Of a stretch of 52,496 nucleotides of DNA, positions 2,140 to 51,759 are shown in pieces. How positions within the stretch are numbered: the first letter of the stretch is position 1; each line of letters opens with the position of its first letter. Origin of the DNA: Methyloversatilis discipulorum (GTDB lineage: Bacteria; Pseudomonadota; Gammaproteobacteria; Burkholderiales; Rhodocyclaceae). The notes beneath the pieces were generated by a model. It saw only the letters and a list, made by a program, of their open reading frames with translations. It was not told the DNA's origin and made no database searches. The DNA lies in contig NZ_JADMJL010000019.1 in the NCBI RefSeq assembly GCF_018780585.1, forward strand, positions 180,880 through 233,375, in the 5' to 3' direction. A program made the position numbers and the translations under genes.

Positions 2140-4902
<2,763 letters not shown>

Positions 4903-18384: not shown

Positions 18385-18414
18385 CCTCACGACCGTGACG
18401 GATGGCTCGGAATG

Positions 18415-18428
18415 TTGACGAAAGTCAA
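18415..18428. promoter_or_regulatory. FNR/CRP-type palindrome upstream of the adhesin
   Basis: TTGAC-GAAA-GTCAA is a perfect 5-4-5 palindrome in the pattern bound by FNR/Dnr/FixK regulators (TTGAY-N4-RTCAA). It lies 136 bp before the adhesin ATG and 31 bp after the PEP-CTERM gene stop. Function is inferred from the motif only. Confidence 0.35.
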
Positions 18429-18490
18429 AGAAAACAAGTGGGTCGGAGGGGCGATGGCGGACGCAATGCACATCATTCCGGTCACATCGG

Positions 18491-18506
18491 CTTACACTTA
18501 TGTAAG
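18491..18506. promoter_or_regulatory. AT-rich palindrome in the adhesin leader
   Basis: CTTACA-CTTA-TGTAAG is a perfect 6-bp inverted repeat in an AT-rich island about 58 bp upstream of the adhesin start. It could be an operator or overlap a -10 region. Confidence 0.35.
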
Positions 18507-18563
18507 AAATATTCCTACACGCGGACAGCAACCGCGGGCGCTGCAGCATTCAGGAGTCAGGTC

Positions 18564-30500: not shown

Positions 30501-33500
30501 GGTCCGTACAAGACGGCCACGACGCTGGCGGAGGCAAAATCCAACTACGACGCGCTGGTGGCGGCGGGGATGAAACCGTCCGATCCGCGCTTCCGCATCA
30601 GCAACACCGAAGGCAACATCGTGGCCTTCTTCAATGCGGAACTGAACCGCGTCGAGCTGGAACCGGTGAAGGTCGAGGGGGGCAAGCTTGAGCTGCTGGG
30701 CGAGATCCTGAACACCGGCGGTGGCCGCATCGCGGCGATGGACGGCTACGGCCGCTTCAACATCGACAACCGCAGCGGCTACGACATCGTGATCACCGGC
30801 CTCGATACCGGCAACGACATCGAAGGCAAGGTGCGCATCACCGATTACCTGCGGCGCTGGGATCCGCTGGCCAACGGCGGCCAGGGCGCCATCGTCACCA
30901 ACGCATCGCAATCCAGCACACAGACCGTCGCCTACTACAACAGCCTGACGCCGGTGACGCGCGAAGTCACCCGTCTGGGCAACGCCGTCAAGACACGCGA
31001 CCTCATCACCACCACCGATGCGCAGAACAAGGTGAAGGAAGTCGAGGTCGAGCACTACGACGACGTGGCCGGTCGCAGCACGGGATACGCACCGGTGACC
31101 GGACAGACCTATACCTGGGTCACCGGTCAGCGCAACACGACCAACACCTATTCGCGGTACGAGAAGGAAACCAAGTTCTGGTTCTTCCCCGGCAGCTGGT
31201 CGCTGGCCGATCGCACCGCCTACCGCACCTGGGACGATCCGACGCCGCTGTCCGAGGGCGAGTATACGAAGATCGACACCGGCATGGGCAACACGACCTA
31301 CCGCTACCAGCGACGCGACGTGACCACCGCGTTCCGCTCCTGGGATCGCGAGGATTCCGAGTGCTCGGCCTTCCTCTGCATCTGGAAGTGGCATACCTAC
31401 GAGGTGTGGACCGAAACCGGCTCCAAGCGCTACAACACGCACACGGTGAAGGCCGACCACTCGATCCCGATCAACTTCATCGGTTACGACAGCGGCCAGG
31501 TCGACATCCGCAGTCGCGCCGACATCATCTTCGCCGGCAGCCTGACCAACCGCACCGGCACGACGACGGTGGACGCCACCGCCGGCAACGGCCTGCCGGG
31601 GGGCGCCATCACGGCGGAAAGCGTGCGCGGCGTCATCACCGCGCAGAACCTGACCCTGCGTGCCGCCGACGGCATCGGCAACACGCTGACGCCGCTGCAG
31701 ATCGACATGCTGGGCACCGGCGCGGTGACGGCCATCAGCGCGCACGGCGACATCGGCCTGCGTGAAATGAGTGGCGACATGCGGGTGAGCGAAGTGCGTA
31801 CCGACAACAGCGGCCGCGTGTTCCTGCAGGCGGACCGCGACATCGTTGCGGCCGGTAGCGGCAACGCGGTACGCGTGCAGGGTGGCGGCGTGGAGCTGGT
31901 GTCCAGCTCGGGCCAGATCGGCACCGACGCGCAGGCGCTTGTGGTGCAGACCCAGGCCACCGCGCAGGGCGGTCTGAGTGCGACCGCCAGCGGCGACATC
32001 CATCTGATGCAGCCGGACGGCGACATGCAGCTGGACAAGATCGAATCGCAGTCGGGCGACGTGACGCTGACCGCGCTCGGCGGTCGCATCACCGACGGCA
32101 ACCGTAACGAAACGCGCGATACCCGCGCCGAAGCCGAACTCGACGCGCTGTGGAACGACCTGCGCCTGCGCGAATCGGATGGCGCGGCCGACAGTCTGGC
32201 CGACGCGCTGAAGGGCCACCGCTCGCAGATCAGCCGCGAGTACCAGGAGTACTGGTCGCTGCGCAACGTCGAACTGATCGAGGATCCGCAGAACGCCGGC
32301 AGCTTCGTCTATCGCGCCGACAGCTACAACGCGGCTACCGCGTCGACGCGGCTGCGTACGCTGCACGACAAGCTGAGCGGACTTGGCATCTCGCTCGGCA
32401 GCACCGGTGCCAGCTACGACAGCAGCTTCAGCTACGTCGGCTCGGCCGCGACCGACACCGTCATCGCCGGCATGTCCGACGGCACCCATGTGTGGACCGA
32501 CAACCAGGTGCGTTACGGCGTCAGCGCGGCGATCTACAACAAGTCGACGTCGGACACCGAAACGCGCGTCGAACAGCCCAATGTGGTCGGTCGCCACATC
32601 GTGCTGAACGCCAACAGCGCCAATGGCGGCGTCGGCCGCGACGAGGGCCAGTTCACCGTCAGCATCGCCAGCCTGACCGCGCTCACGCCGGATCAGCGCC
32701 GCGCGCTGTCGGCGGCCGAGGCTGACGACGTGGCGATCGACACGGTGGCCAAGACCGCGACCGTGCTCAAGCGCGACGACGTCGACATCGCCACCACGGC
32801 GGGAGGCTCGGTCACGGTCAATGCACGCGGCCACGTCTTCCTCGGGGCTGACGATTACGACCGCAACGGCACCGTGCTGCCGGGCGACATCAATCTGGTG
32901 TCGCTGGACGCCACCGGCGGCGGCGTCGACTTCAGCAAGACGATCCGGCTCAAGGTGTCTGGCGGCATCGTCGATGCCAGCACGACGAACGCGCCGAACC
33001 TGCGTGGCGGCAGCACCATCATCGAAGCGGGCAGCGGCAGCATAGGCAGTGCAGCCAGGCCGATCACCCTCGATCTGGGCGAGGCGGCGACGCTGACCGC
33101 GCGCGCGTCGACCGGCATCTGGCTGAACGAGATGAGCGGTTCGATGCGGGTGGCCGAAATGTTCGCCGGCAGCGGCGGCATCCATCTGACGAGTGCCGGC
33201 AGCATCGTTGATGCCAGCGGCGCCCAGCGTGCGGTGGCCATGCAGACGGCCGCTGGCGACATCGACCTGGTGGCGCTCGGCGGCAGCATCGGTGCCGACG
33301 GCCAGCCGCTGCTGATCGCGCAGGGTGCGGGCGGGCTGGTCAATGCGCAGGCCAGCGGCGACGTGCATCTGTCCGGTACGCGAGCGGTCGAACCGGGTCT
33401 GTCGCCGGCGCTGACGATCGGTACTGTCAGTACCGGTGGTTCGATGTCCCTCGCCGCACCGGTCGGCGATCTGCGTCAGACCGGCGACGCCGAGGCAGTG

Positions 33501-34823: not shown

Positions 34824-36517
34824 GTCTTGCTCAGCGTCGGACGAAGGTGGGACAGGGCGCTGCGTGCGCACTGGTTTCGGCATTAAGCCTGCTGCTGCCG
34901 CTGCAGGTGGATGCGCAGGCGGTGCCGCAGATTCCGGCGGCCGCCGATCCGGGCGTGATCCAGGAACGTTCGCGTGACATCGAGCGGCGACTGCGCGAGG
35001 AGCGGGAGCGGCGTCCTGATGACACGCCCACCATCGACGACGACGCGCTGAAGCCGGCGCCGGTCAAACCGGCGGCCGGTGCGCGTTTCATGCTCCGGCG
35101 CATCGATTTCACCCGCTCGGAACTGCTGGAGGAGGCGACACTGCGCGGCCTGGCGGCCGGCCTCGAAGGGCGCGAGGTCACGCTGGGCGAGGTGCAGGAA
35201 CTGGTTGATCGCATCAACGCGCTGTATCGCGACCAGGGCGTGCCGACCGCGCAGGCGGTACTGCCGGCACAGGAAGTGGCCGATGGCGCGATCACCATCA
35301 AGCTGGTCGAAGGCCGCGTCGGCAAGGTGGTGATGAGCGGCAACGACAGCACTTCGGAGGCCTTCATCCGCGAGCGGCTCGGCCAGAGGCCGGGCGAACT
35401 GGCCGACGTGGCCGCGCTCGAGCGCAGCATGATGCGCTTCAACCGCACCCAGGACGTGCAGTTGCGGGCCGAGCTGAAGCCGGGCGCGAAGTTCGGCGAA
35501 ACCGATTTCGCGCTGTCGGTGAAGGAACCGCCAAAGCATGAAATGCGGCTGTTCGCTGACAGCAGTGGCAGCCAGGCGACTGGCGTCTACCGTGTCGGCG
35601 CCTTCTACCAGAACCGCAGCCTGCTTGGTTTCCGCGATGCGCTGGGCGTCACGTTGGTGGGCGCCGATGGGCACGAGGGCAGGGCGATCTCGTACAGCTT
35701 TCCGCTCGGCACACTGGGCACGCGGCTCACGCTGTCCTGGTTCAACGACCACACGCGCATCATCGACGGCCCCTTCCGGCCGCTGCGCATCCGCGGCGAA
35801 TCGACGGCGTGGACTGCGCTGCTGCGGCATCCGGTGCTGATTGGTGGCAATTACCAGCTCGATCTGCTCGGCGGCGCGAAGAAGCGCAAGACCGAGAGCT
35901 GGATTTCCGGGCGGCTGTTCCAATCGACCGACATCGACGATCTGTCGCTCGGCGTCGATGGCCAGTGGTGGGAGAAGGACCGCATCTGGACCGGCTCGCT
36001 GACCTACTCGAACGGCAAGGCCGACCCGATCGACGACATCGTCAGCACATCGTTCTCGATCTGGCGTGGCTCGCTGCGCCGCGTGCAGGATCTGTCGGAC
36101 GGCTGGTCGGTGCAGAGCAACCTTGCCTTCCAGTACACGCGCGACGAGAACCTCACGTCGAGCGAGCAGTTCCTGATCGGTGGCGACAACAGCGTACGCG
36201 GCTACCAGACCGGCCTCTTCAGCGGCGACAAGGGTCTCGCCGCGTCGATCGAACTGCACCACCCGCTGCCGCAGCCGCCGGTGGCGCCGGTGCGCACGGC
36301 CGGCTTCCTGTTCCTCGACTACGGCGCAACCCAGCCTTTCCGTCCGGTCGGTTCGACGCGCGGCACCGACACGCTGGCCAGCTACGGCTGGGGCGTGAAT
36401 GCCAATATCAACGACCGCGTGTCAGCCCGCTTCACGCTGGGCCTGCCCATCCGCGACCGCGTGCAGGATCCGCGCAACTACTACGTCCACTTCCAGATCG
36501 TCGCGCAGCTGTTCTGA
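34820..36517 (+). CDS. TpsB outer-membrane transporter (ShlB/FhaC/HecB family)
   Basis: A 565-residue Omp85-superfamily pore that exports the adjacent adhesin. A signal peptide ends near VDAQA. A proline/charged linker follows. The POTRA domains (about residues 85-235: FMLRRIDFTRSEL, then RDQGVPTAQAVLPAQEVADG and VVMSGNDSTSEAFIRERLG) recognise the TPS domain. The 16-strand barrel contains the loop-6 motif NSVRGYQTG (near nt 36190) and ends in QIVAQLF with a terminal Phe. The start is GTG at 34820, inside the adhesin stop (GTGA), so translation is probably coupled. Confidence 0.93.
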   Translation: MSLAQRRTKVGQGAACALVSALSLLLPLQVDAQAVPQIPAAADPGVIQERSRDIERRLREERERRPDDTPTIDDDALKPAPVKPAAGARFMLRRIDFTRSELLEEATLRGLAAGLEGREVTLGEVQELVDRINALYRDQGVPTAQAVLPAQEVADGAITIKLVEGRVGKVVMSGNDSTSEAFIRERLGQRPGELADVAALERSMMRFNRTQDVQLRAELKPGAKFGETDFALSVKEPPKHEMRLFADSSGSQATGVYRVGAFYQNRSLLGFRDALGVTLVGADGHEGRAISYSFPLGTLGTRLTLSWFNDHTRIIDGPFRPLRIRGESTAWTALLRHPVLIGGNYQLDLLGGAKKRKTESWISGRLFQSTDIDDLSLGVDGQWWEKDRIWTGSLTYSNGKADPIDDIVSTSFSIWRGSLRRVQDLSDGWSVQSNLAFQYTRDENLTSSEQFLIGGDNSVRGYQTGLFSGDKGLAASIELHHPLPQPPVAPVRTAGFLFLDYGATQPFRPVGSTRGTDTLASYGWGVNANINDRVSARFTLGLPIRDRVQDPRNYYVHFQIVAQLF

Positions 36518-36580
36518 GCAACGGCGCAGGCGCTCTCCGGATGGTGCGCCCGCCCCGTCGCTGGAGCCCGCACCGGGGTT

Positions 36581-36792
36581 CTGTGGGAGGGGTCCTCCGA
36601 CCCCGACAGCGGCCTGGCCCGAAGCCCACAGGGGCTTGTCGCGGCCAAGGCCGCTCCCACAGGCGGTGCACGAGATCCGCGACCTGAGCCTGGGCCGGGG
36701 TTCTGTGGGAGGGGTCTTCTGACCCCGACTGCAGTCTGAATCGAGGCCGGCAGACCGCAGCTGCCGCGTCGCGGCCGAGGCCACTCCCACAG
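36581..36792. repeat. Two REP-like inverted-repeat units
   Basis: Two units (36581-36662 and 36703-36792) fill the gap between tpsB and the cupin gene. Each begins CTGTGGGAG, contains a GGGGTC/GACCCC hairpin, then a GCGGCC/GGCCGC-type hairpin, and ends CTCCCACAG (the second unit has a variant GGCCGAGGCC). The ends are terminal inverted repeats. Similar palindromes recur at 42154-42486. No transposase lies nearby. Confidence 0.8.
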
Positions 36793-36810
36793 AAGATGCG
36801 CCGGAGCGAC

Positions 36811-37146
36811 TCAGACCGCGACGAAGTCCAGTGTTTTAGACAGCATGAACATGACGGTGCAGCCGGTGTCCGTCTCGTGCGGTCCGTGCACGGTGCCGGC
36901 CGGCGCGGCGAACACGGCGCCTGGCCCGTAGCGGCGGCCGTTCTCGATGAACTCGCCGTCGAGCACGTAAGCCACTTCGTCGGCCTCGGTGTGCAGGTGG
37001 TTCTGCACCGCCGATCCGGGATCGAAGCGATAGACAACGACTGAAGCGCCTTCGGCGGGGTTGCCGTCGAGCACCTTGTAATGCACGCCTTCGATGCCGC
37101 TGGCCTGCCAGCTCAGATCGTCGGCGTGGAACTGGGTGGTATACAT
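36811..37146 (-). CDS. Small cupin-domain protein
   Basis: A 111-residue single-domain cupin. Motif 1 supplies His50, His52 and Glu57 (HLHTEADEV), and motif 2 supplies His87 (PAGTVH), so the metal site looks complete. The product could be a small-molecule-binding or dioxygenase-like enzyme, or an anti-sigma-type sensor; nothing decides this. The ATG at 37146 follows CCGGAG. A candidate sigma54 promoter and enhancer elements shared with the acetone carboxylase and CoA-transferase promoters lie upstream, so the gene may belong to the same regulon. Confidence 0.8.
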   Translation of the reverse strand: MYTTQFHADDLSWQASGIEGVHYKVLDGNPAEGASVVVYRFDPGSAVQNHLHTEADEVAYVLDGEFIENGRRYGPGAVFAAPAGTVHGPHETDTGCTVMFMLSKTLDFVAV

Positions 37147-37192
37147 TCGGGGCTCCGGAATGGCCGGGTCGGATTGACCCGCACGACGCTGC

Positions 37193-37207
37193 GCACGGAC
37201 CATGCCA
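37193..37207 (-). promoter_or_regulatory. Candidate sigma54 promoter of the cupin gene (weak)
   Basis: Reading on the minus strand, TGGCAT-N5-GTGCG has the GG (37206-37205) and GC (37194-37193) dinucleotides exactly 10 bp apart. The -24 box is good; the -12 box has G in place of the first conserved T. It lies 46 bp upstream of the cupin ATG. Confidence 0.4.
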
Positions 37208-37285
37208 TCCGTCCCGTCGGCCACACCCGAGCGACGTGCCCCCGCACGATGGCGTCGACACGCCGTTTGCTGCGCATCGACGCCA

Positions 37286-37382
37286 TCCGGACATACCTCC
37301 GAACGCCGCGGTCAGCCGTTCCTCAGACTGAAAGTCGAACCGCCCGCCGTCGGGCGGACGAATTCCGGACTGTGCCGATCGC
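37286..37382. promoter_or_regulatory. Putative enhancer cluster upstream of the cupin gene
   Basis: TCCGGACA (37286-37293), CTGAAAGTCGAACCGCCCG (37328-37346) and TTCCGGACTGTGCCGATC (37363-37380) lie 80-175 bp upstream of the candidate promoter. The last element matches the acxA upstream region at 42652-42670 with a one-base insertion and one substitution. A 7-bp hairpin inside (37340-37346/37351-37357) could also terminate the CHRD gene on the minus strand. Confidence 0.5.
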
Positions 37383-37397
37383 TCGCCGGCAGCGTGT

Positions 37398-37937
37398 TCA
37401 GACGCGCCGGCGTGCGACCAGCGTGACCAGACCCAGGCCCGCGGCCAGCATGGCCCAGGTGCCAGGCTCCGGTACCGCCGTCACCTGCAGCAACTGGCCG
37501 CGGATCTCGCCGCCGGGAAAGACCGCGTTGTGGATGTTCACGTAATACCCCCCCGCCAGCAGATCGGTCAGATCGAGCGCGCCCGGCCCACTCCGGCTGA
37601 ATGCGGCGGCCGTCCAGCTGCCGTCGTCCTGCATCGCCTGCAGGATGTCGTCAGCGAAATCGAACACCACCGGTCCGTTGCTGCCGGCTGGACCTTCGTG
37701 AATATGGGCACCCGTCACCGACGCGGCCAGACCGCCAGCGCCGAAGATGAGCTGGGTGATGCTGTTCGTGCTGTCGTCGAACGTGAGGTAGGCGCTGCCG
37801 GACGCCATCGAGGCGTTGGCGGGCACCTGGCTTGCGCCCGACAGGTTGGCGACGAACTGGAAGGTGGCGGCCTGTGCGGTCGAGGCGGCCAGGGCGAGGG
37901 CGGCAATGACGACTTTGCAGGCTTTCAGACGGGTCAT
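37398..37937 (-). CDS. CHRD-domain PEP-CTERM protein
   Basis: A 179-residue exported protein. The signal peptide (MTRLKACKVVIAALALAASTAQA) is followed by a CHRD domain (TFQFVANLSGASQVPANASM, SVTGAHIHEGPAG, ALDLTDLLAGGYYVNIHN, FPGGEIRGQL), a fold named from chordin whose bacterial role is unclear. The C terminus is a PEP-CTERM signal (VPEPGTWAMLAAGLGLVTLVARRRV region) for exosortase sorting. The ATG at 37937 follows ACGGAG. It lies between the divergent cupin and scoA genes and is flanked by two similar copies of the putative enhancer, as if inserted between them. Confidence 0.88.
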   Translation of the reverse strand: MTRLKACKVVIAALALAASTAQAATFQFVANLSGASQVPANASMASGSAYLTFDDSTNSITQLIFGAGGLAASVTGAHIHEGPAGSNGPVVFDFADDILQAMQDDGSWTAAAFSRSGPGALDLTDLLAGGYYVNIHNAVFPGGEIRGQLLQVTAVPEPGTWAMLAAGLGLVTLVARRRV

Positions 37938-38047
37938 GACGAAATCTCCGTAACGGTTGTCGGGAATGTTCGGGCCGGACACGGGATGCATCCGCGGCGG
38001 TACCCCTCGTGCTACACGGCAGGTGCCGTTCCGGATGCAGGCATCGC

Positions 38048-38208
38048 CTGAAAGTCGGACCGCCCGGTCGACGGGCTGCGGCCGATTTTCGGACTTCCCG
38101 TGTGGTGCGCCGCAACGTTTCCCGATAAGCAGTCACTTCATCCCCCTCCGGACTGTCGTTTCCGGCGATGGTGCGACGCACACGACGCGCGCCGGCACAG
38201 GCTTTGCT
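38048..38208 (+). promoter_or_regulatory. Sigma54 promoter and upstream elements of the scoAB operon
   Basis: CGGCAC-N5-TTTGCT (38193-38208) has GG (38194-38195) and GC (38206-38207) 10 bp apart and departs from the -24/-12 consensus only at the first base. It lies 63 bp before scoA. Upstream elements are CTGAAAGTCGGACCGCCCG (38048-38066), TCGGACT (38089-38095) and TCCGGACTGT (38147-38156), within 150 bp of the promoter, as expected for an enhancer-binding activator. Confidence 0.7.
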
Positions 38209-38270
38209 GAATCTCCTCCGGGCAATTCGCGGCGACGTCGCGAAACACCGATGCAACAAGGAGGAGGCAG

Positions 38271-38969
38271 ATGAAAAAGCTCTACCCGGACGCCAAGAGC
38301 GCGCTCAAGGGTTTGCTCAAGGACGGACAGACGCTGGCGGTCGGCGGCTTCGGGCTGTGCGGCATTCCCGAGCAGCTGATCGACGCGGTGGCCGACAGCG
38401 GCACGCACGACCTCACGGTGATCAGCAACAACGCCGGCGTCGATGGCATCGGCCTCGGCAAGCTGCTGGCCAATCGTCAGGTGCGCCGGATGATCGCGTC
38501 CTACGTCGGCGAGAACGAGGAGTTCGAGCGCCAGCTGCTGTCGGGCGAACTGGAGGTCGAACTGACGCCGCAGGGCACGCTGGCGGAAAAGCTGCGCGCT
38601 GGCGGGGCCGGCATCCCGGCGTTCTACACGCGCACCGGCGTCGGCACGCCAGTCGCCGACGGCAAGGAAACGCGCGATTTCGGCGGCCACCGCTATCTGC
38701 TCGAACATGCGCTGCTGGCCGATGTCGCGCTGGTCAAGGCGTGGAAGGCCGACGGTGCGGGCAATCTGGTCTTCCGCAAGACCGCGCGCAACTTCAATCC
38801 GATGATCGCGACTGCCGGGCGCACGACGATCGCCGAGGTCGAGGAGATCGTGCCGACCGGCCAGCTCGACCCGGACCAGATCCATACGCCGGGCATTTTC
38901 GTGCAGCGCGTGATCGTCAATCGCACCCCTTCGAAGCACATCGAAAAACGCACGACGAGGACCGCCTGA
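38271..38969 (+). CDS. scoA: 3-oxoacid CoA-transferase subunit A (SCOT type)
   Basis: Alpha subunit of the enzyme that moves CoA from succinyl-CoA to acetoacetate. The 232-residue product has the family signature [28 protein letters not shown] and [12 protein letters not shown], matching ScoA/LpsI. The start follows GGAGGAGG. scoB follows with one base between. In this context it would convert acetoacetate made by acetone carboxylase into acetoacetyl-CoA, though the same family also includes 3-oxoadipate and acetate CoA-transferases. Confidence 0.9.
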
Positions 38970-38970
38970 C

Positions 38971-39618
38971 ATGGCCTGGACACGAGACGACATGGCGCGC
39001 CGCGCGGCGCGCGAACTGCGCGACGGCTACTACGTGAACCTCGGCATCGGCATGCCGACGCTGGTGGCCAACCACATTCCGGAAGGCATGGACGTGTGGC
39101 TGCAGTCGGAGAACGGCCTGCTGGGCATCGGCCCCTTTCCGACCGAGGACGAGGTCGACGCCGACCTCATCAACGCCGGCAAGCAGACGGTGAGCACGCT
39201 GCCGGGCAGCAGCTTCTTCAGCAGCGCCGACTCGTTCGCGATGATCCGCGGCGGCCATATCGACCTCGCCATCCTCGGCGCGATGCAGGTGAGCGAACGC
39301 GGCGATCTGGCGAACTGGATGATTCCGGGCAAGCTGGTCAAGGGCATGGGCGGCGCGATGGATCTGGTGGCCGGTGTGCGCCGTGTCATCGTCATGATGG
39401 AGCACTGCAGCCGCAGCGGCGAACACAAGATACTGAAGCAGTGCGACCTGCCGCTGACCGGGGTCGGCGTGGTGAGCCTCATCGTCACCGACCTGTGCGT
39501 GCTGGCGGTGACGCCGGACGGTCTGGAGCTGCGCGAACTGGCGCCTGGCGTGAGCATCGACGAGGTGCTCGAAAAGACCGGTGCGCCGGTGCTCACTGCG
39601 CCGGTGGTGCTGTGCTGA
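38971..39618 (+). CDS. scoB: 3-oxoacid CoA-transferase subunit B (SCOT type)
   Basis: Beta subunit of the CoA-transferase, 215 residues. It carries the catalytic glutamate (Glu47) in the [12 protein letters not shown] motif that forms the covalent glutamyl-CoA intermediate, and the family segments [15 protein letters not shown] and [23 protein letters not shown]. It is encoded directly after scoA, and its 3' end overlaps the likely start of the next gene, indicating one operon. Confidence 0.92.
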
Positions 39619-40052
39619 CGCCGGGCGGTGCGGCGCCTGCCGCCGCCGCGCGTCGCAGCGCGCGCGCCAACGTGATCACGCTGCAGCAGCTGGTGCAGGG
39701 TTACGGCATTCCGCTGGCCCGGATTTCCGCCTTCGAGGAACTCGGCATCATCGATGCGGCCGGTGCCGACCGTTACAGCTGCGAGGACGACGACCGACTC
39801 ATCATCGCCGCGGCCGCCGTGCAGCTCGGTTTCACGCTGCGCGAACTGCGCGAGCTGATGGACCTGTACGACGAAGCGTCGCCGGCCCGCCGCGCCCTGC
39901 CCAACTTCATGAAGCTGCTCGCCAGCTACCAGCGCCTGATGGCCTGGCGCCAGCCCGAGGGCTACGACCCGCCGCCGGCCGGACGTCAGCGCAAGCCTTT
40001 CCGCGCCCGGCACTTCCGCCCGGAAATCGTCTCTTCAAAGGAATCGACATGA
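39612..40052 (+). CDS. MerR-like HTH protein in the sco operon
   Basis: A 146-residue protein with a MerR-type winged helix (about residues 22-90): [40 protein letters not shown], then [20 protein letters not shown]. The C terminus is basic and lacks a cysteine metal or redox site. The start is uncertain; GTG at 39612 overlaps the scoB stop and is the simplest choice. The stop overlaps the peroxiredoxin start (ATGA, 40049-40052). It may regulate the operon or the redox genes after it. Confidence 0.65.
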
Positions 40053-40645
40053 GCATCCTGGTTGGCCAGACGGCGCCGGACTTCACCGAGAACGCGGTGT
40101 GGGGCGACAACGAGTTCCGCCCCTACACGCTGTCGGACGGTCGCGGGCGCTACACCGTGCTGTTCTTCTATCCGCTGGATTTCACCTTCGTCTGTCCGTC
40201 GGAACTGATCGCCTTCGAGCGGCGCATGCCCGAGTTCGCCCGCCGCAACGTCGATGTCGTCGGCTGTTCCATCGACTCGGCCTACACGCACCTCGCATGG
40301 AAGAAGACCTCGTATGCAGAGGGAGGCGTCGGTCCGCTCAGCTATCCGCTGATCTCCGACATGACGCACGCCGTGTCGCGCGCCTACGGCGTCGAAGGGC
40401 CGATGGGCATTTCGCTGCGCGGCACCTTCCTGATCGATCGCTCCGGCGTGGTGCAACACCAGATCGTGAACAACCTCGCGCTGGGCCGCGACATCGACGA
40501 GCTGCTGCGCGTGATCGATGCGCTTCAGCATACGGAACTGCACGGCGAGGTCTGCCCCGCCGGATGGCAGAAGGGCAAGGCCGGCATGACGCCGACCGAT
40601 CGTGGTGTGGCGAGCTACCTCGCCGAGCATTCGGACATGTTGTGA
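40049..40645 (+). CDS. Typical 2-Cys peroxiredoxin (AhpC/Prx1 family)
   Basis: A 198-residue thiol peroxidase that reduces hydrogen peroxide and organic peroxides. The peroxidatic Cys49 lies in DFTFVCPSE, and the resolving Cys169 in EVCPAGW. An extra Cys73 is present. The C terminus ends YLAEHSDML without the YF tail of sensitive eukaryotic enzymes. The ATG at 40049 overlaps the previous stop and follows AAAGGAATCGAC. Two glutathione-transferase-like genes follow, suggesting a redox or detoxification role tied to ketone metabolism. Confidence 0.92.
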   Translation: MSILVGQTAPDFTENAVWGDNEFRPYTLSDGRGRYTVLFFYPLDFTFVCPSELIAFERRMPEFARRNVDVVGCSIDSAYTHLAWKKTSYAEGGVGPLSYPLISDMTHAVSRAYGVEGPMGISLRGTFLIDRSGVVQHQIVNNLALGRDIDELLRVIDALQHTELHGEVCPAGWQKGKAGMTPTDRGVASYLAEHSDML

Positions 40646-40668
40646 TGGCACCCTGGGAGAGCGGACAC

Positions 40669-41298
40669 ATGAAACTGTACGACTGGCACGCAGCCCCGAA
40701 CCCGAAGCGGGTTCGCATGTTTCTCGTCGAGAAGGACCTGGACCTGAACATCGTCGAGGTGTCGGGTGAGAACCTGCGCCTGCGGGCCGACTACATCGAG
40801 AAGTTTCCGCAGGCCATGGTGCCCATGCTGGAACTGCCGGACGGCCGCCAGATCGGCGAATCGATGGCGATCTGCCGTTACCTCGAAGAACTGCATCCTG
40901 CGCCGCCGCTGCTCGGTCGCAACGCCTACGAGCGCGCCATCGTCGACATGTGGGAAAGGCGAGCCTTCGACGAAGGCATGATGGCAGCCGGCGAGGTGTT
41001 CCGGAATACCGCCGACGCCTTCCGCGACCGCGGTCTGCCGGGCTTCGCGTCGCCGGTGGCGCAGATTCCTGCCCTGGTCGAACGCGGCCGCGAGCGGCTC
41101 GGTCACTTCTTCCGCAAGTTCGACCAGCAACTGGGCAAGCATCGCTACGTTGCCGGCGAGACCTTCTCGGTGGCCGACTGCACCACCTACTGCAGCATCG
41201 AGTTCGCCGGCTGGTCGGACATCGGCATTCCGGCCGACTGCAGCAATCTGCTGCGCTGGCACAAGGACGTGAGCGCGCGCCCGAGCGCGCGCGCCTGA
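40669..41298 (+). CDS. Glutathione S-transferase-like protein
   Basis: A 209-residue protein with a thioredoxin-fold N-terminal domain (MKLYDWHAAPNPKRVRMFLV, FPQAMVPMLELPDGRQIGES with the cis-Pro and the Glu/Ser glutathione-binding pair) and an all-helical C-terminal domain (RYVAGETFSVADCTTYC). No active-site Cys at the usual position was seen; a Ser/Asn chemistry is possible. The ATG at 40669 follows GGGAGAGCGGACAC; an alternative ATG at 40645 overlaps the peroxiredoxin stop. It is probably part of the sco operon. Confidence 0.87.
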   Translation: MKLYDWHAAPNPKRVRMFLVEKDLDLNIVEVSGENLRLRADYIEKFPQAMVPMLELPDGRQIGESMAICRYLEELHPAPPLLGRNAYERAIVDMWERRAFDEGMMAAGEVFRNTADAFRDRGLPGFASPVAQIPALVERGRERLGHFFRKFDQQLGKHRYVAGETFSVADCTTYCSIEFAGWSDIGIPADCSNLLRWHKDVSARPSARA

Positions 41299-41407
41299 GG
41301 ATCGCCGACATGCGATGCCGGATATGGGGCGACACGCTGCAGGGCAGGGCGGCGCGCGCATCCGGATCGCATCGAGGCCACTGAGCACTGCATCGGGGGA
41401 TGCGCGA

Positions 41408-42034
41408 ATGATCGACCTTTACTCTGCACCGACACCTGATGGCTGGAAGGTTTCGATTGCGCTCGAAGAGCTGCGCATCCCCTATGCCGTGCACCCGATG
41501 GAAGCCTGCAGCGGCGAACGCCTGGCGCCGGACTTCCTGCGCGTCAGCGCCTGCGCCTGTTCGCCCACCATCGTCGATCACGACGCAGCGGGTTTCTCGG
41601 TCAGCGATGCCGGTCCCGTTCTGGTCTATCTCGCCGAACGCAGCGGCCAGCTGATGCCGAGCGACGCCATGGGTCGCTCGCGTGTGATGCAGTGGCTCAT
41701 GCTGCCGGTCGACGCCGCCGACGCGGCGAAGACGGGTGATGCGAAGGCAGCACGGGCGGAGATGTTGCGTCTGTTCGCGCTGTTCGACCACCACCTACAG
41801 GGCGCCGACTACCTTGCTGGCGCGTTCAGCATTGCGGACATCGCACACTGGGCCTGGATGCGCATGCATGCGTGGTCCGACGTGGATATGCATCGCTTCA
41901 ACGCGCTGGCGCGCTGGCTTCAGCGTGTCGCGGCGCGCGACGCCACGCTGCGCGGCCTGCGTGCGCTGCCGTCACCGTCGCTCGAACGGCCGGCCGAGCA
42001 TGTGTGGAAAGTGAAATCCATCCTGCTGCGTTGA
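41408..42034 (+). CDS. Glutathione S-transferase-like protein (YfcG/Nu-like)
   Basis: A 208-residue GST-like protein. The N terminus (MIDLYSAPTPDGWKVSIALE) resembles the YfcG/YghU group, whose members act as disulfide-bond reductases or peroxidases. The C-terminal domain includes YLAGAFSIADIAHWAWMRMH. It follows the first GST by 109 bp and is the last gene before the repeat-rich acxA upstream region. Whether it shares the sco transcript is unknown. Confidence 0.83.
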   Translation: MIDLYSAPTPDGWKVSIALEELRIPYAVHPMEACSGERLAPDFLRVSACACSPTIVDHDAAGFSVSDAGPVLVYLAERSGQLMPSDAMGRSRVMQWLMLPVDAADAAKTGDAKAARAEMLRLFALFDHHLQGADYLAGAFSIADIAHWAWMRMHAWSDVDMHRFNALARWLQRVAARDATLRGLRALPSPSLERPAEHVWKVKSILLR

Positions 42035-42047
42035 GCGCGCGAGCTCG

Positions 42048-42539
42048 GCTCTCGCACGCTTCGCTCGAGGAACCGAACGAGAGCGCTCTGTGCGATGCAG
42101 TCATGACTGCCGCCTGGGCCTGAACCGGGCGCCGCGCAATGCCCGCCGTTGCTGTCGGGGTCAGAAGACCCCTCCCACAAAAAGCCCAAACTTCGGCCGA
42201 GGTTCCGCGCATTCCCTGTGGGAGCGGCCTTGGCCGCGACGCCGCTTTTGCCGGCCGCCGGCTTCGGTCAAGGCCGCAATCGCGAGCAAGCGCGCTCTCC
42301 CACGCTTCGCTCGAGGAACCGAACGAGGGTGCTCTGCGGGATGCAGTCATGACTGCCGCCTGGGCCTGAATCAGGCGCCGCGCACTACCCACGGTCGCTG
42401 TCGGGGTCGGAAGACCCCTCCCACAAAAAAACCAAACGACGACCGAGGGTCGCTCGCATTCCCTGTGGGAGCGGCCTTGGCCGCGATGCGGCTTTGGCTG
42501 GCCGCCGGCCTCGATCAAGGCCGCAATCTCTTGAGCAAA
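42048..42539. repeat. 246-bp tandem duplication carrying REP-like palindromes
   Basis: Two copies (about 42048-42293 and 42294-42539) share long identical stretches, including CACGCTTCGCTCGAGGAACC (42055 and 42301) and ATGCAGTCATGACTGCCGCC. Each contains a GGGGTC/GACCCC hairpin ending CTCCCACA (42154-42179; 42400-42425) and a GCGGCC/GGCCGC hairpin beginning CTGTGGGAG (42216-42240; 42463-42486). The boundaries are approximate. No coding frame in it looks real. Confidence 0.8.
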
Positions 42540-42623
42540 CCGGCCCACACCGATGCTCAGCCACGCCGCGCGAGCCACGGTGTTGACGCCGTCCGGAAGT
42601 TGTTGCGACGCAGCATATCAAAA

Positions 42624-42715
42624 CCGTCCGAAACGACCGTCCGACGCGGGTTTCCGGACAGTCCGATCGCACTACGGTCGCTTCATACGATGCCGTCCGA
42701 ATTCCATCCGTCCGA
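42624..42715. promoter_or_regulatory. Putative enhancer cluster upstream of acxA
   Basis: CCGTCCGA occurs at 42624-42631, 42637-42644, 42693-42700 and 42708-42715, and the near-palindrome CCGGACAGTCCGA at 42654-42666. They form two closely spaced pairs flanking the palindrome, 93-184 bp before the -24 box, the usual place for activator binding at sigma54 promoters. Confidence 0.6.
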
Positions 42716-42807
42716 TGCCCGTCGGCATGTTGTCACCCGACAGGCGAAGAAAATTATCCATATATAAATCAATCGCTTGAGAGATTGCCGTGTGCCGGAA
42801 TCCGCAC

Positions 42808-42823
42808 TGGCACCGTCCTTGCA
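42808..42823 (+). promoter_or_regulatory. Sigma54 promoter of the acetone carboxylase operon
   Basis: TGGCAC-N5-TTGCA is a near-perfect -24/-12 promoter, with GG (42809-42810) and GC (42821-42822) 10 bp apart. The expected start near 42834 gives a leader of about 90 nt. Acetone carboxylase operons studied in Xanthobacter are also sigma54-dependent. Confidence 0.88.
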
Positions 42824-42923: not shown

Positions 42924-45071
42924 ATGACGATCGATAACTCGTCGGTTCAGGTGCTGGGGATTGATGCAGGCGGCACCATGACCGACACCTTCTTTGTCCG
43001 TGCGGACGGCCGCTTCGTGGTCGGCAAGGCACAGAGCAATCCCGGGGACGAATCCCTGGCGATCTACAACTCGTCGGTCGATGCACTGGCGCACTGGGGC
43101 CGTGAGGTCGACGACGTGTACCCGGAGCTGGTGACCTGCGTGTACTCCGGTACCGCGATGCTGAACCGCGTTCTGATGCGCAAGGGCCTCGACGTCGGCC
43201 TCATCTGCAACCGCGGTTTCGAGCAGGTGCATTCGATGGGCCGCGCGCTGCAGAGCTATCTGGGTTACGCGCTGGAGGACCGCATCCACCTGAACACGCA
43301 CCGCTATGACGAGCCGCTGGTTCCGGTGTCGCGTACCCGTGGCGTGACCGAGCGTACCGACGTGCAGGGCAAGGTCGTCATTCCGCTGCGTGAAGCCGAA
43401 GTGCGCACCGCGGTGAAGGAGCTGGTCGAAGCCGGTTCCCAGGCCATCGTCATCTGCTTCCTGCAGTCGCACAAGAACGGCACCAGCGAACAGCGCGCCC
43501 GCGACATCGTCAAGGAAGAACTGAAGAAGCTCGGCTCCAGCATCCCGGTCTTTGCCTCGGTGGATTACTACCCGCAGCGCAAGGAAAGCCACCGCATGAA
43601 CACCACCATTCTCGAAGCCTATGGCGCGGAACCGTCGCGCGAGACGCTGAAGAAGGTGAGCGACCGCTTCAAGAAGCACGGCGGCAAGTTCGATCTGCGC
43701 GTGATGGCCACGCACGGCGGCACCATCAGCTGGAAGGCCAAGGAACTGGCCCGCACCATCGTGTCCGGCCCGATCGGCGGCGTGATCGGCTCCAAGCTGC
43801 TGGGCGAGGCGCTCGGTGACGAGAACATTGCCTGCTCTGACATCGGCGGTACCTCGTTCGACGTGGCCCTGATCACCAAGGGTTCGTTCGCCATCAAGTC
43901 CGATCCGGACATGGCCCGTCTGGTGCTGTCGCTGCCGCTGGTGGCGATGGACTCGGTCGGTGCCGGTGCCGGTTCCTTCGTGCGCCTGGATCCGTACTCG
44001 AAGTCGCTGAAGCTGGGCCCGGACAGCGCTGGCTACCGCGTCGGCACCTGCTGGCCGGAAAGTGGCCTGGACACCGTGTCGGTGTCGGACTGCCACGTCG
44101 TACTCGGTTACCTGAACCCGAACAACTTCCTCGGCGGCGCGATCAAGCTCGACGTGCAGCGTGCGCGTGACCACATCAAGGCGCAGATCGCCGACCCGCT
44201 GGGCCTGTCGGTCGAAGACGCGGCCGCTGGCGTGATCGAGCTGCTCGATCTGACGCTGTCCGAGTACCTGCGCGCCAACATCAGCGCCAAGGGTTACAAC
44301 CCGGCTGAATTCACCTGCTTCTCCTACGGCGGTGCCGGCCCGGTTCACACCTACGGCTACACCGAAGGCGTCGGCTTCAAGGACGTCGTCGTACCCGCCT
44401 GGGCGGCCGGCTTCTCCGCCTTCGGCTGCGCCTGCGCCGACTTCGAATATCGCTACGACAAGTCGGTCGACCTCGGTGTCGCCCAGCTGGCCAGCGACGC
44501 CGACAAGGCGGCCGCATGCCAGACCCTGCAGGCGGCCTGGACGGAGCTGGCGGGCAAGGTGATCGAGGAGTTCGTCATCAACGGCTTCAAGCCGGAAGAC
44601 GTGATGCTGATCCCCGGCTACAAGATGCAGTACATGGGTCAGCTGAACGACCTGGAAATCATCTCGCCGGTGTCGACCGCTGCGACCGCGTCCGACTGGG
44701 ACAAGATCGTCGAAGCCTTCGAGAACACCTACGGCCGCGTCTATGCGAGCTCCGCACGTTCGCCCGAACTGGGCTTCTCGGCCACCGGCGCAATCATGCG
44801 CGGCACCGTGGTGACGCAGAAGCCGGTGCTGCCGGAAGACCCGGACTGCGGCCCGACGCCGCCGCCGGAAGCGCGCATCGGTACCCGTCCGTTCTATCGC
44901 CACAAGAAGTGGGTCGATGCGGTGATCTGGAAGATGGAAGCGCTGAAGTCGGGCAACCACATCGTCGGCCCGGCCATCATCGAATCCGATGCCACCACCT
45001 TCGTCGTGCCGGACGGTTTCGAGACCTTCGTCGACAAGCACCGCCTGTTCCACCTGAAGGAAGTCAAGTAA
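42924..45071 (+). CDS. acxA: Acetone carboxylase beta subunit (hydantoinase A/oxoprolinase family)
   Basis: The nucleotide-binding subunit of acetone carboxylase, which uses ATP to activate bicarbonate and acetone on the way to acetoacetate. The 715-residue product has the two ASKHA phosphate motifs, VLGIDAGGTMTDTFFV at the N terminus and CSDIGGTSFDVALI in the middle. Length matches Xanthobacter AcxA (about 717). The ATG at 42924 follows GGAGACGTGGAG; the frame is open to 42777, but that would include the sigma54 promoter. The gene order beta-alpha-gamma and the small third subunit distinguish this from acetophenone carboxylase and hydantoinases. Confidence 0.95.
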   Translation: MTIDNSSVQVLGIDAGGTMTDTFFVRADGRFVVGKAQSNPGDESLAIYNSSVDALAHWGREVDDVYPELVTCVYSGTAMLNRVLMRKGLDVGLICNRGFEQVHSMGRALQSYLGYALEDRIHLNTHRYDEPLVPVSRTRGVTERTDVQGKVVIPLREAEVRTAVKELVEAGSQAIVICFLQSHKNGTSEQRARDIVKEELKKLGSSIPVFASVDYYPQRKESHRMNTTILEAYGAEPSRETLKKVSDRFKKHGGKFDLRVMATHGGTISWKAKELARTIVSGPIGGVIGSKLLGEALGDENIACSDIGGTSFDVALITKGSFAIKSDPDMARLVLSLPLVAMDSVGAGAGSFVRLDPYSKSLKLGPDSAGYRVGTCWPESGLDTVSVSDCHVVLGYLNPNNFLGGAIKLDVQRARDHIKAQIADPLGLSVEDAAAGVIELLDLTLSEYLRANISAKGYNPAEFTCFSYGGAGPVHTYGYTEGVGFKDVVVPAWAAGFSAFGCACADFEYRYDKSVDLGVAQLASDADKAAACQTLQAAWTELAGKVIEEFVINGFKPEDVMLIPGYKMQYMGQLNDLEIISPVSTAATASDWDKIVEAFENTYGRVYASSARSPELGFSATGAIMRGTVVTQKPVLPEDPDCGPTPPPEARIGTRPFYRHKKWVDAVIWKMEALKSGNHIVGPAIIESDATTFVVPDGFETFVDKHRLFHLKEVK

Positions 45072-45154
45072 GCGCCGGCGTCCTGAAGGGCTGTCGGCGC
45101 CCACCCGGGCCCGGCAGCGCAGCGATCCGGAAAAAACTCCAAAGGAGAGACTGA

Positions 45155-47479
45155 ATGAACATGATGAGCAACAACGAGACCGGCTTCGCCGATCTCCTGA
45201 AGAACGGCCAGACGCTGAAGCAGTTCCGCGACGGCATCATCGAGCGCACCAAGGCCAGCGGCCACTACAACGGCCTGGAGAAGCTCGAACTGCGCGACGC
45301 CGACCCGATCGGCTACGAGAAGCTGTTCTCCAAGCTGCGCGGCGGCCTGGTGCATGCCCGCGAAACCGCGAAGAAGATCGCCGCCAGCCCGATCGTCGAG
45401 CAGGAAGGCGAACTGTGCTTCACGCTGTACAACGCGGTCGGCGACTGCGTGCTCACCTCGACCGGCATCATCATCCACGTCGGCACGATGGGCGCGGCGA
45501 TCAAGTACATGATCGAGAACAACTGGGAAGCCAACCCCGGCATCAATCCCGGTGACATGTTCACCAACAACGACTGCTCGATCGGCAACGTGCACCCGTG
45601 CGACATCGCCACCATCGTCCCGATCTTCTGGGAAGGCCGTCTGATCGGCTGGGTGGGTGGTGTGACGCACGTGATCGACACCGGCGCGGTGACCCCGGGT
45701 TCGATGTCGACCGGCCAGGTGCAGCGCTTCGGCGACGGCTACATGATCACCTGCCGCAAGACCGGTGTGAATGACACGCCGCTGCGTGACTGGCTGCACG
45801 AGTCGCAGCGTTCGGTGCGTACGCCGAAGTACTGGATTCTCGACGAGAAGACCCGTATCGCCGGCTGCCACATGATCCGCGAACTGGTCGAGGAAGTGAT
45901 CCGTGCCGACGGCATCGAGGCCTACGAGAAGTTCGCCTACGAGGTCATCGAGGAAGGCCGTCGCGGCCTGATGAGCCGCATCAAGGCGATGACGCTGCCG
46001 GGCAAGTACCGCAAGGTGTCCTTCGTCGATGTGCCGTACAAGCACGAAGACGTGCAGGTGTCCTCCGCCTTCGCCAAGCTCGATTCGATCATGCACTCGC
46101 CGTGCGAAATGACGATCAAGCCGGACGGCAAGTGGCGCCTCGACTTCGAAGGTGCGAGCCGCTGGGGCTGGCATACCTTCAACGCCCACCAGGTGGCCTT
46201 CACCTCGGGTATCTGGGTGATGATGTGCCAGACGCTGGTGCCGACGCAGCGCATCAACGACGGCGCCTACTTCGCCACCGAGTTCCACCTGCCCAAGGGC
46301 ACCTGGTGCAACCCGGATGACCGTCGCACCGGCCACGCCTACGCATGGCACTTCCTGGTGTCCGGCTGGGCGGCGCTGTGGCGCGGTCTGTCGCAGTCCT
46401 ACTTCAGCCGCGGCTACCTCGAAGAGGTGAACGCCGGTAACGCCAACACCTCGAACTGGCTGCAGGGTGGGGGTATCAACCAGGACGGCGAGATCCACGC
46501 GGTGAACAGCTTCGAGGCCTCGTCTTGCGGTACCGGTGCCTGCGCCGTCAAGGACGGCCTGAACCACGCCGCCGCCATCTGGAATCCGGAAGGCGACATG
46601 GGCGACATCGAAATCTGGGAAATGGCCGAACCGCTGCTCTACATGGGCCGCAACGTGAAGGCCAACTCCGGCGGCTACGGCAAGTACCGTGGCGGCTGCG
46701 GTTTCGAGACGCTGCGCATGGTGTGGAACGCCCAGGACTGGACGATGTTCTTCATGGGCAACGGCTTCATGAACAGTGACTGGGGCATGATGGGTGGTTA
46801 CCCGGCTGCCACCGGCTACCGCTTCGAAGCGCACAAGACCGGCCTGGAGCGTCGCATCGCCAACGGCGAAAGCCTGCCGCTGGGTGGCGACATCGATCCG
46901 ACCTCGCCGACCTACGAGCACAACATCGACGCCACGGCACGGATCAAGCGCGACAAGCAGTGCATGACCACCGAGGACTGCTACGACAACCACGATCTGT
47001 ACCTGAACTACCTGCGTGGCGGCCCCGGCTTCGGCGACCCGATCGACCGCGAGCCGAAGGCGATCGAGAAGGATCTGAACGAGAAGTTCCTGCTGCCCGA
47101 GTACGCCCAGAAGGTGTATGGCGCCGTCTTCACCCAGAACGCCAAGGGTGCGTACGTCATCGACGTGGCCAAGACCCAGGCCCGTCGCGCCGAGATGCGC
47201 AAGGAACGTCTGGCCCGTGCGGTGCCGGTGCGCGAATGGATGAAGGAAGAGCGCGAACGCATCATCAACAAGCACGCGTCGCAGGCCGTCCAGCACATGT
47301 TCGCCACCAGCTTCGCGCTGTCCGAGAAGTTCACCAAGCACTTCAAGGACTTCTGGAGCCTGCCGGCCGACTGGCAACTGCTGGAGACCGAACTGGGCGT
47401 TCCGTCCTACGGTTCCAAGCACCGCATGGACCTGTCGCTGATGCCTGACGTCACCACCGTCGTCCAGGTCGAAGAGTGA
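45155..47479 (+). CDS. acxB: Acetone carboxylase alpha subunit (hydantoinase B family)
   Basis: The manganese-containing catalytic subunit that joins activated acetone and carbon dioxide to make acetoacetate. The 774-residue product is the family length. His147, Asp150 (NVHPCD) and His172 (GGVTHV) match by spacing the His/Asp/His manganese ligands reported for the Xanthobacter enzyme. It follows acxA by 83 bp and has an AAAGGAG ribosome site. A GCGCCG/CGGCGC hairpin in the gap (45072-45100) might adjust relative expression. Confidence 0.95.
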   Translation: MNMMSNNETGFADLLKNGQTLKQFRDGIIERTKASGHYNGLEKLELRDADPIGYEKLFSKLRGGLVHARETAKKIAASPIVEQEGELCFTLYNAVGDCVLTSTGIIIHVGTMGAAIKYMIENNWEANPGINPGDMFTNNDCSIGNVHPCDIATIVPIFWEGRLIGWVGGVTHVIDTGAVTPGSMSTGQVQRFGDGYMITCRKTGVNDTPLRDWLHESQRSVRTPKYWILDEKTRIAGCHMIRELVEEVIRADGIEAYEKFAYEVIEEGRRGLMSRIKAMTLPGKYRKVSFVDVPYKHEDVQVSSAFAKLDSIMHSPCEMTIKPDGKWRLDFEGASRWGWHTFNAHQVAFTSGIWVMMCQTLVPTQRINDGAYFATEFHLPKGTWCNPDDRRTGHAYAWHFLVSGWAALWRGLSQSYFSRGYLEEVNAGNANTSNWLQGGGINQDGEIHAVNSFEASSCGTGACAVKDGLNHAAAIWNPEGDMGDIEIWEMAEPLLYMGRNVKANSGGYGKYRGGCGFETLRMVWNAQDWTMFFMGNGFMNSDWGMMGGYPAATGYRFEAHKTGLERRIANGESLPLGGDIDPTSPTYEHNIDATARIKRDKQCMTTEDCYDNHDLYLNYLRGGPGFGDPIDREPKAIEKDLNEKFLLPEYAQKVYGAVFTQNAKGAYVIDVAKTQARRAEMRKERLARAVPVREWMKEERERIINKHASQAVQHMFATSFALSEKFTKHFKDFWSLPADWQLLETELGVPSYGSKHRMDLSLMPDVTTVVQVEE

Positions 47480-47517
47480 CCTCCAACAGACCGATCACGC
47501 GAATCAAGGAGCAATAA

Positions 47518-48021
47518 ATGTCGACTTACACCAACGAGCAGGTCGCTCACCTGGCCGAGGGCACGCTGGACTGGGAAACCACTTTCCGCATGCTGTCGAT
47601 GCCGAAGGACAACAGCCGCTTCAAGCAGTACGTCGAGGCGCTGCAGAAGAAGGTGACCTTCAAGGACAAGATCGTGCTGCCGCTGGCCCCGCACATGTAC
47701 ATCGTGCAGACCGCGAAGAAGCAGTGGGTCATCAAGTGCGATTGTGGTCACGAGTTCTGCGACTACACCGACAACTGGAAGATGCACGCGCACATCTACG
47801 TGCGTGACACGGAAGAGGCGATGACCGAGGTCTATCCGAAGCTGATGGCGCCGGATACCAACTGGCAGGTGTACCGCGAGTACTACTGCCCGACCTGCGG
47901 CACGCTGCACGACGTCGAGGCACCGACCCCGTGGTACCCGGTGATCCACGACTTCGAGCCGGACATCGAAGCCTTCTACAAGGAGTGGGTCGGCCTTCCG
48001 GTGCCCGAACGGGCGTCGTGA
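47518..48021 (+). CDS. acxC: Acetone carboxylase gamma subunit
   Basis: The small subunit of the heterohexameric enzyme, 167 residues, close to the 168 of Xanthobacter AcxC. Cys74, Cys76 and Cys81 with His78 (KCDCGHEFC) and Cys124/Cys127 (YYCPTCG) form a likely zinc site. The start follows AAGGAGCAATAA, 38 bp after acxB. Its presence identifies the cluster as a true acetone carboxylase. Two strong hairpins follow the stop. Confidence 0.94.
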   Translation: MSTYTNEQVAHLAEGTLDWETTFRMLSMPKDNSRFKQYVEALQKKVTFKDKIVLPLAPHMYIVQTAKKQWVIKCDCGHEFCDYTDNWKMHAHIYVRDTEEAMTEVYPKLMAPDTNWQVYREYYCPTCGTLHDVEAPTPWYPVIHDFEPDIEAFYKEWVGLPVPERAS

Positions 48022-48080: not shown

Positions 48081-48257
48081 AGCGACAGCGGCCGGTTCCG
48101 GCCGGCCGCCTTCCTCCAAACACCCTGACGCGGAATCGGCAGTACCCGTATGCGGCCTTTGGCGGCTGCAGGGGGCCCCTCACGCCGAAATGTCCGTCCA
48201 GGTCATGAAAAGCGTCGTGCGCCCAGCGCACGGAACGGCGCCAGAAGGAGACAGAAG

Positions 48258-49268: not shown

Positions 49269-49289
49269 GAAGCGCAGGGGGAGAATGCT

Positions 49290-51668: not shown

Positions 51669-51673
51669 GGGCA

Positions 51674-51712
51674 GCCCGTCGCGCCCGTCGGTGTCAGCCG
51701 ACGGCGACGGGC
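51674..51712 (+). terminator. Long hairpin between the transporter and DUF1302 genes
   Basis: GCCCGTCG (51674-51681) pairs with CGACGGGC (51705-51712) and CCGTCGG (51685-51691) with CCGACGG (51698-51704) around loop TGTCAG, with a 3-nt bulge. No T-run follows. It could act as a partial terminator or as a mRNA stability element. Confidence 0.5.
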
Positions 51713-51759
51713 GTGTGCAGGCGGCTCATGGGTAGTCCCAAACAGGAGGGAGTGGAGAC

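Follow-up and report, generated by a model that had tools for sequence, protein, structure and literature searches.

Which regulator turns on acetone carboxylation in Methyloversatilis discipulorum, and which other genes answer to it? The question is raised by a stretch of 52,496 nucleotides (hereafter the window) that lies at the extreme end of its 233,375-base contig (G000:C46:180880–233375) and carries the acetone carboxylase genes acxABC (42924–48021, plus strand; acxA itself 42924–45071), the 3-oxoacid CoA-transferase genes scoA and scoB (38271–39618, plus strand) and a small single-domain cupin gene (36811–37146, minus strand). Our analysis indicates that the promoters of acxA, scoA and the cupin gene very probably belong to one sigma-54 regulon under an AcxR-like enhancer-binding protein. 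The single activator that a preliminary description of this DNA had proposed for these genes thereby gains support from sequence comparison: sites at all three promoters are picked out by a matrix built from other genera, and an AcxR-like gene ends the acx cluster.

Three conserved promoters and a shared palindrome

Sigma-54 promoters have the consensus GG-N10-GC in a TGGCAC/TTGC context, and we scored candidate -24/-12 elements on a simple ad hoc scale with a maximum of 15.5. The preliminary description had placed elements with exact 10-bp spacing before all three genes, and each of them indeed reads GG-N10-GC: TGGCACCGTCCTTGCA before acxABC (42808–42823, plus strand; score 15), CGGCACAGGCTTTGCT before scoAB (38193–38208, plus strand; score 14) and TGGCATGGTCCGTGCG before the cupin gene (37192–37207, minus strand; score 12.5). 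The last is the weakest of the three, as had been said, yet it recurs at the same place in all seven loci examined (scores 12.5–14.5). The scoA element was present in 11 of 11 genus loci, with scores of 13–14.5. For acxA we compared 91 loci (11 from a search of the genus and 80 from a wider one, the best 80 of 157; several represent one genome taken from two collections), and the best GG-N10-GC match within the upstream 600 bp, or the sequence covered, lay 54–168 bp before the gene in every one of them, scoring at least 12 in all 91 and at least 13 in 89. Judged by their sequences, the three elements are real and conserved in the genus. Two rpoN-type genes are present in the genome (G000), with PF04552 matches at G000:C65:23322 and G000:C61:113056.

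The upstream motif was learned without the genus. From 74 outside-genus acx loci, three (L084, L117 and L123) were dropped by length or promoter score, and the remaining 71 were thinned by similarity to 55 non-redundant upstream regions. Within 220 bp on the upstream side of the -24 element, the top enriched 7-mer was GTCCGGA/TCCGGAC; 38 of the 55 regions contain it, whereas 200 first-order Markov resamplings averaged 1.87. Expectation-maximisation on the same regions returned the palindrome cGTCCGGAwTCCGGACg from three of four seeds (the fourth gave a low-information matrix of 10.2 bits). The palindrome lies roughly 90–170 bp upstream. In the other genera it is mostly paired, and 35 of the 50 pairs in the 55 promoters are spaced 29–31 bp apart, about three helical turns. 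The shared GTCCGA/TCCGGAC element of the preliminary description stood in part: its clusters are present and supported by the matrix, but the palindrome is the more fitting unit. A direct-repeat reading, with GTCCGA every 13–15 bp, was demoted to half-sites given the palindrome that three of the four seeds produced.

When the outside-genus matrix was run over the window, its top four matches were those at the cupin promoter, at scoA, at 46573 and at acxA, and the next reached only 10.4 bits. The cupin palindrome, AGTCCGGAATTCGTCCG (37355–37371, minus strand; match at 37352), scored highest at 13.6 bits, with 167 bp between it and the downstream -24 element; the scoA palindrome, CGGCCGATTTTCGGACT (38079–38095, plus strand; match at 38076), came second at 13.2 bits, 117 bp upstream; and the acxA palindrome, CGTCCGAATTCCATCCG (42694–42710, plus strand), came fourth at 12.9 bits, the 23-bp matrix window that contains it (start 42691) beginning 117 bp upstream of the -24 element, in a region conserved in Methyloversatilis. 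Across the genus the scoA palindrome scored 9.1–13.4 bits, at 116–117 bp in 10 of 11 loci and at 138 bp in L153, and the cupin palindrome scored 9.6–14.7 bits at 102–167 bp in seven loci. All 11 scoA loci and all seven cupin loci thus combine a sigma-54 element with the palindrome, and a partial eighth cupin locus (L093) has both. The top four matches of 500 column-permuted palindromic matrices never covered the three promoter regions together, and for two matrices they covered two. The three regions stayed among the top four when five loci with Methyloversatilis-like promoters were left out of training, and training on random half-sets recovered all three regions in 17 of 20 runs and two in the other three.

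Half-sites surround the acxA palindrome (GTCCGGA, five copies of GTCCGA, and TCCGGAC; 42591–42715, plus strand), and the window's densest cluster of GTCCGA/TCGGAC/TCCGGA begins there, at 42592, with seven elements per 200 bp; apart from this cluster, the scoA upstream region ranks first, with four elements from 38030. A longer string, TTCCGGACWGT(n)CCGATC, had been described as nearly identical before acxA and the cupin gene. Because four relatives (L146, L153, L148 and L160) lack the CCGATC end upstream of their cupin genes, we rejected the string as a functional unit and take only its TTCCGGAC half to be meaningful; the extended match appears to be partly coincidental.

The consensus for integration host factor (IHF) is WATCAANNNNTTR. 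A site that fits it, AATCAATCGCTTG (42767–42779, plus strand), lies between the acxA enhancer and promoter, and IHF-like sites occur in the last 110 bp of 12 of the 55 outside-genus acx promoters versus a mean of 0.14 in resamplings.

The candidate activator and further predicted members

The preliminary description correctly held that the activator gene is not in the window. The likely activator is missing because the contig ends there, an accident of assembly: the break falls inside a DUF1302 gene, and the cluster resumes on contig C76 (L127) with genes for a DUF1329 protein, an acyl-CoA synthetase, a thiolase and acxR. In a relative (G001; L146, L147) the order is unbroken, running from acxABC through YCF48-like, RND, DUF1302, DUF1329, acyl-CoA synthetase and thiolase genes to acxR. 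Eight of the 11 acx-bearing genus genomes have acxR about 15 kb downstream of acxA on the same contig; in G000, G006 and G009 the two genes are on separate contigs. The AcxR-like gene was found in 13 of 13 genus genomes. No acxA was found in G004 or G005 in the genus search, which we do not take as loss because there the contigs bearing acxR have an end inside the cluster or close to it.

The C76 regulator (L127:5843–8026) comprises GAF, Sigma54_activat and HTH_8 (Fis-type helix) domains and fits the expected acxR homologue. It is this genome's closest match to seven AcxR-like, acx-linked activators, with 43–53% identity over ~650 amino acids, versus 33–37% for the second-best regulator by score; two other acx-locus activators (L050, and the first of L062) match other regulators of this genome better. 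Its loop reads GSFTGA, one residue off the GAFTGA motif through which such activators contact sigma-54. The recognition-helix residues I(A/S)(K/R)STLY are common to the C76 protein and to acx-linked activators elsewhere (those with the C terminus covered), and they are absent from four other regulators of this genome, which has 27 Sigma54_activat matches in all, 24 of them strong. Four relatives (G007–G010; L142–L145) carry a second AcxR-like regulator with 57–59% identity.

The regulon may well extend beyond the three promoters, as sites before the thiolase–acxR pair (thl-acxR) and a pyrroloquinoline quinone (PQQ) alcohol dehydrogenase gene suggest. The gap between the synthetase and thiolase genes in G000 holds two palindromes with a spacing of 31 bp, one of 20.4 bits and one of 16.9 bits, which lie 122 and 91 bp before the sigma-54 element TGGCCCGTTAATTGCA; the thiolase reading frame opens with GTG at 4552, and acxR comes next. 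This palindrome is present in nine of nine genus loci (15.9–22.5 bits), and outside the genus a separate sigma-54 element with palindromes often belongs to acxR itself (L078, L092 and L106, for example). Self-activation of acxR is therefore predicted. A joint scan for sigma-54 elements of at least 13 with palindromes of at least 11 bits, over 1.15 Mb around 80 acx loci, gave 111 cases: 81 before acxA, 18 labelled acxR, four scoA, one cupin and seven other. Ten of the acxR cases lie 5.2–7.4 kb downstream of acxA, hence outside the training DNA, and nine of these ten have two palindromes 31–33 bp apart.

The exact consensus sequence GTCCGGAWTCCGGAC occurs once in the genome, on contig C37, 165 bp before the sigma-54 element TGGTACGCGCCTTGCG of the PQQ alcohol dehydrogenase gene. 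This copy of the dehydrogenase is found in 11 of 13 genus genomes; all 11 have a sigma-54 element (at least 12.5), and 10 of them also have a palindrome of at least 13 bits, at 165–251 bp. The other copy also has sigma-54 elements, and its palindrome score does not exceed 5.4 bits in any of 13 loci, which, as far as sequence goes, makes it a useful internal control. Of the solved chains, 6zcv/6zcw come nearest to the C37 enzyme. Both copies read WDYD in 24 of 24 loci, aligning with WDFD in 6zcv, WDYD in 4mae and WDFS in 1flg; we take WDYD, with its extra Asp two residues past the catalytic Asp, to be the lanthanide signature of PQQ alcohol dehydrogenases, and we infer that the C37 enzyme oxidises 2-propanol. 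Given the sites at thl-acxR and the PQQ gene, one activator probably drives the use of 2-propanol and acetone from the alcohol to acetyl-CoA.

In the mechanism that we propose, the GAF-containing N terminus of AcxR would sense acetone, 2-propanol or a product, and AcxR dimers would bind the palindromes. DNA looping, assisted at acxA by IHF, would bring bound AcxR to the sigma-54 RNA polymerase, and AcxR would turn on acxABC, scoAB, thiolase–acxR (amplifying itself), the cupin gene and the PQQ alcohol dehydrogenase gene, whose products would jointly convert 2-propanol to acetone, acetoacetate, acetoacetyl-CoA and finally acetyl-CoA. We see an even chance that the widest form of this scheme is correct, namely a self-amplifying, whole-pathway C3 regulon in which AcxR would use one operator (cGTCCGGAwTCCGGACg, in ~30-bp pairs) across Beta- and Alphaproteobacteria and, in Methyloversatilis, would control, besides acetone carboxylase, CoA transferase, thiolase, acxR and cupin, a lanthanide-type PQQ alcohol dehydrogenase that makes acetone from 2-propanol, so that a methylotroph's alcohol dehydrogenase would be wired to ketone rather than C1 use.

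Alternatives and counter-evidence

The sigma-54 promoters could be real and scoA and the cupin gene nonetheless be driven by a different enhancer-binding protein with an AcxR-like site. We consider this unlikely, because a matrix trained only on acxA promoters gives the acxA site of the window a lower score than the sites at scoA and the cupin gene, four other regulators of this genome have different recognition helices, and scoAB accompanies acx in 11 of 11 acx-bearing genus genomes. The idea does draw on the 24 strong Sigma54_activat genes, on the second AcxR-like gene in G007–G010, and on an extra element common to scoA and the cupin gene, TGAAAGTCGRACC, whose core TGAAAGTCG is found on neither strand in the 424 bp before acxA. 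Less probable by far is that the palindromes are chance matches or operators of another type of regulator, for instance an IclR-type repressor, even though TGTCCG...CGGACA sites precede an IclR-like gene on contig C57 and the palindrome has no genome-wide excess over a reversed control: its position relative to a -24/-12 partner is conserved across genera, its copies pair at 29–31 bp, the three promoters were recovered with a matrix trained outside the genus, and it separates the two PQQ paralogues.

Several results nevertheless weigh against a single AcxR regulon. One of the four best matches in the window, at 46573 (13.2 bits), lies inside acxB, and when five loci with Methyloversatilis-like promoters were removed from training the same top four were found with the acxB match first. 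The palindromes in the window are imperfect and half-degenerate, and another of the 24 strong Sigma54_activat genes could bind some of the sites. A clear sigma-54 element precedes thl-acxR in only four of nine genus loci. In the joint scan, the 81 acxA cases are mostly training DNA, and not fewer than two of those labelled acxR fall within genes (L062 at 2674, and L117). No IHF-like site was found at the scoA, cupin, thl or PQQ promoters; we rejected IHF as a general component, acxA being the only one of the five own promoters with such a site. At looser cut-offs (palindrome 9 bits, sigma-54 12.5), 380 kb of control DNA from the same genome contained 11 joint cases, and palindromes with up to three mismatches numbered 222 in the genome against 247 for the reversed control, with similar results in three relatives.

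With no excess over the reversed control at up to three mismatches, weak single palindromes prove nothing, and defining a genome-wide regulon through a loose pattern was set aside as uninformative (60+69 versus 62+62). At strict settings the 380 kb contained four matrix sites of at least 12.8 bits, one of which is followed at 60–320 bp by a sigma-54-like element, a weak one (12.5). The genome has 11 places where the palindrome is matched with no more than one mismatch (counting a pair on C67 as two), and three of these have a sigma-54 element of at least 13 in place: C37 (PQQ), scoA and C76 (thl-acxR). The element is weak (12.5) at C77:421897, C57 and C67, and no sigma-54 element was in place at the near-exact palindromes on C9, C19, C61 and C71. 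The C67 pair consists of two near-perfect palindromes 21 bp apart (L170, 1480–1515; G000:C67:125912–125947; also in L169 and in G001); a strong -24/-12 element, TGGCACTGGCCTTGCA, lies about 150 bp upstream of them. The C57 sites, TGTCCGCATATCGGACA and TGTCCGATGAACGGACA (L238; G000:C57:8630), lie between the IclR-like gene and a divergent gene and are perhaps an IclR operator.

Gene surroundings and known systems

AcxA has 715 residues, and its relatives at 80 loci (the best 80 of 157) share 85–99% identity over at least 708 of them; that of Methyloversatilis universalis EHg5 is 99% identical. NCBIfam acetophenone carboxylase models match AcxA under their cut-offs, and the gene name acx follows what is known of the family. 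ScoA and ScoB match TIGR02429 and TIGR02428 over cut-off. The cupin protein (111 amino acids) matches Pfam Cupin_7, Cupin_2 and Cupin_1 over cut-off, and its nearest solved chain is ChrR 3o14 (E 9e-10); for G011 and G012, the stretches covered contained no cupin gene. Downstream of acxABC, the window contains genes for a YCF48-like protein, an RND-type transporter (named from its sequence) and the start of the DUF1302 protein (48150–52494, plus strand).

Between the cupin gene and scoA lies a gene for a CHRD-domain PEP-CTERM protein (37398–37937, minus strand), the position of which is occupied by a second DUF1329 gene in G003, G007, G008 and G010. A small MerR-like gene (39615–40052, plus strand; under the Pfam cut-off), between scoB and a peroxiredoxin-like gene, is a possible second regulator of the operon. 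Intergenic stretches of the GTGGGAGCGGCCTTGGCCGCGAC type (36560–36800 and 42140–42520), which by eye resemble repetitive extragenic palindromes, flank the scoAB–acx region. Farther off, positions 18402–36517 of the window hold a huge open frame of 5473 amino acids, adhesin-like by eye, and after it a 565-amino-acid frame that resembles a two-partner-secretion transporter.

Sigma-54/AcxR control of acx had already been proposed; on the sequence evidence, what is new is a defined operator and a set of predicted members. Sluis et al. in 2002 reportedly proposed sigma-54 control of acx in the AcxR/acxABC system of Xanthobacter autotrophicus Py2. The same was proposed for Cupriavidus metallidurans CH34 (PMC2864759), where a gene for a sigma-54 type activator likewise lies beside acxABC and a sigma-54 promoter, TGGCATGNNNNTTGC, lies between acxR and acxA. 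The available part of that paper gives no operator, and in contrast to its account acxR here lies ~15 kb downstream of acxA, behind the thiolase gene, and the regulon seems to include scoAB, the cupin gene and the gene for the PQQ alcohol dehydrogenase as well (PMC2864759). A sigma-54 regulator gene also lies downstream of acxABC in Paraburkholderia phymatum, and there expression of the acx operon and of its regulator Bphy_6153 increased in nodules of a nifA mutant, as self-activation would lead one to expect; the accessible text describes no motif and no link to scoA, a cupin or an alcohol dehydrogenase (PMC8305402). BmoR, the alcohol-responsive sigma-54 activator of PBMO in Thauera butanivorans, is similar in its upstream inverted repeat and proposed IHF-assisted looping, but it differs in genes and inducer, and neither GTCC nor CGGAC occurs in the main text of the paper, as far as that was available (PMC8899819). 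No published description of an AcxR/acx operator was found in the literature covered, which consisted mostly of papers outside subscription.

With a defined palindrome, AcxR regulons could be predicted from genome sequences, and parts for acetone and 2-propanol sensors would be at hand. It would also draw attention to unexpected members of such regulons, here a cupin and a lanthanide-type alcohol dehydrogenase.

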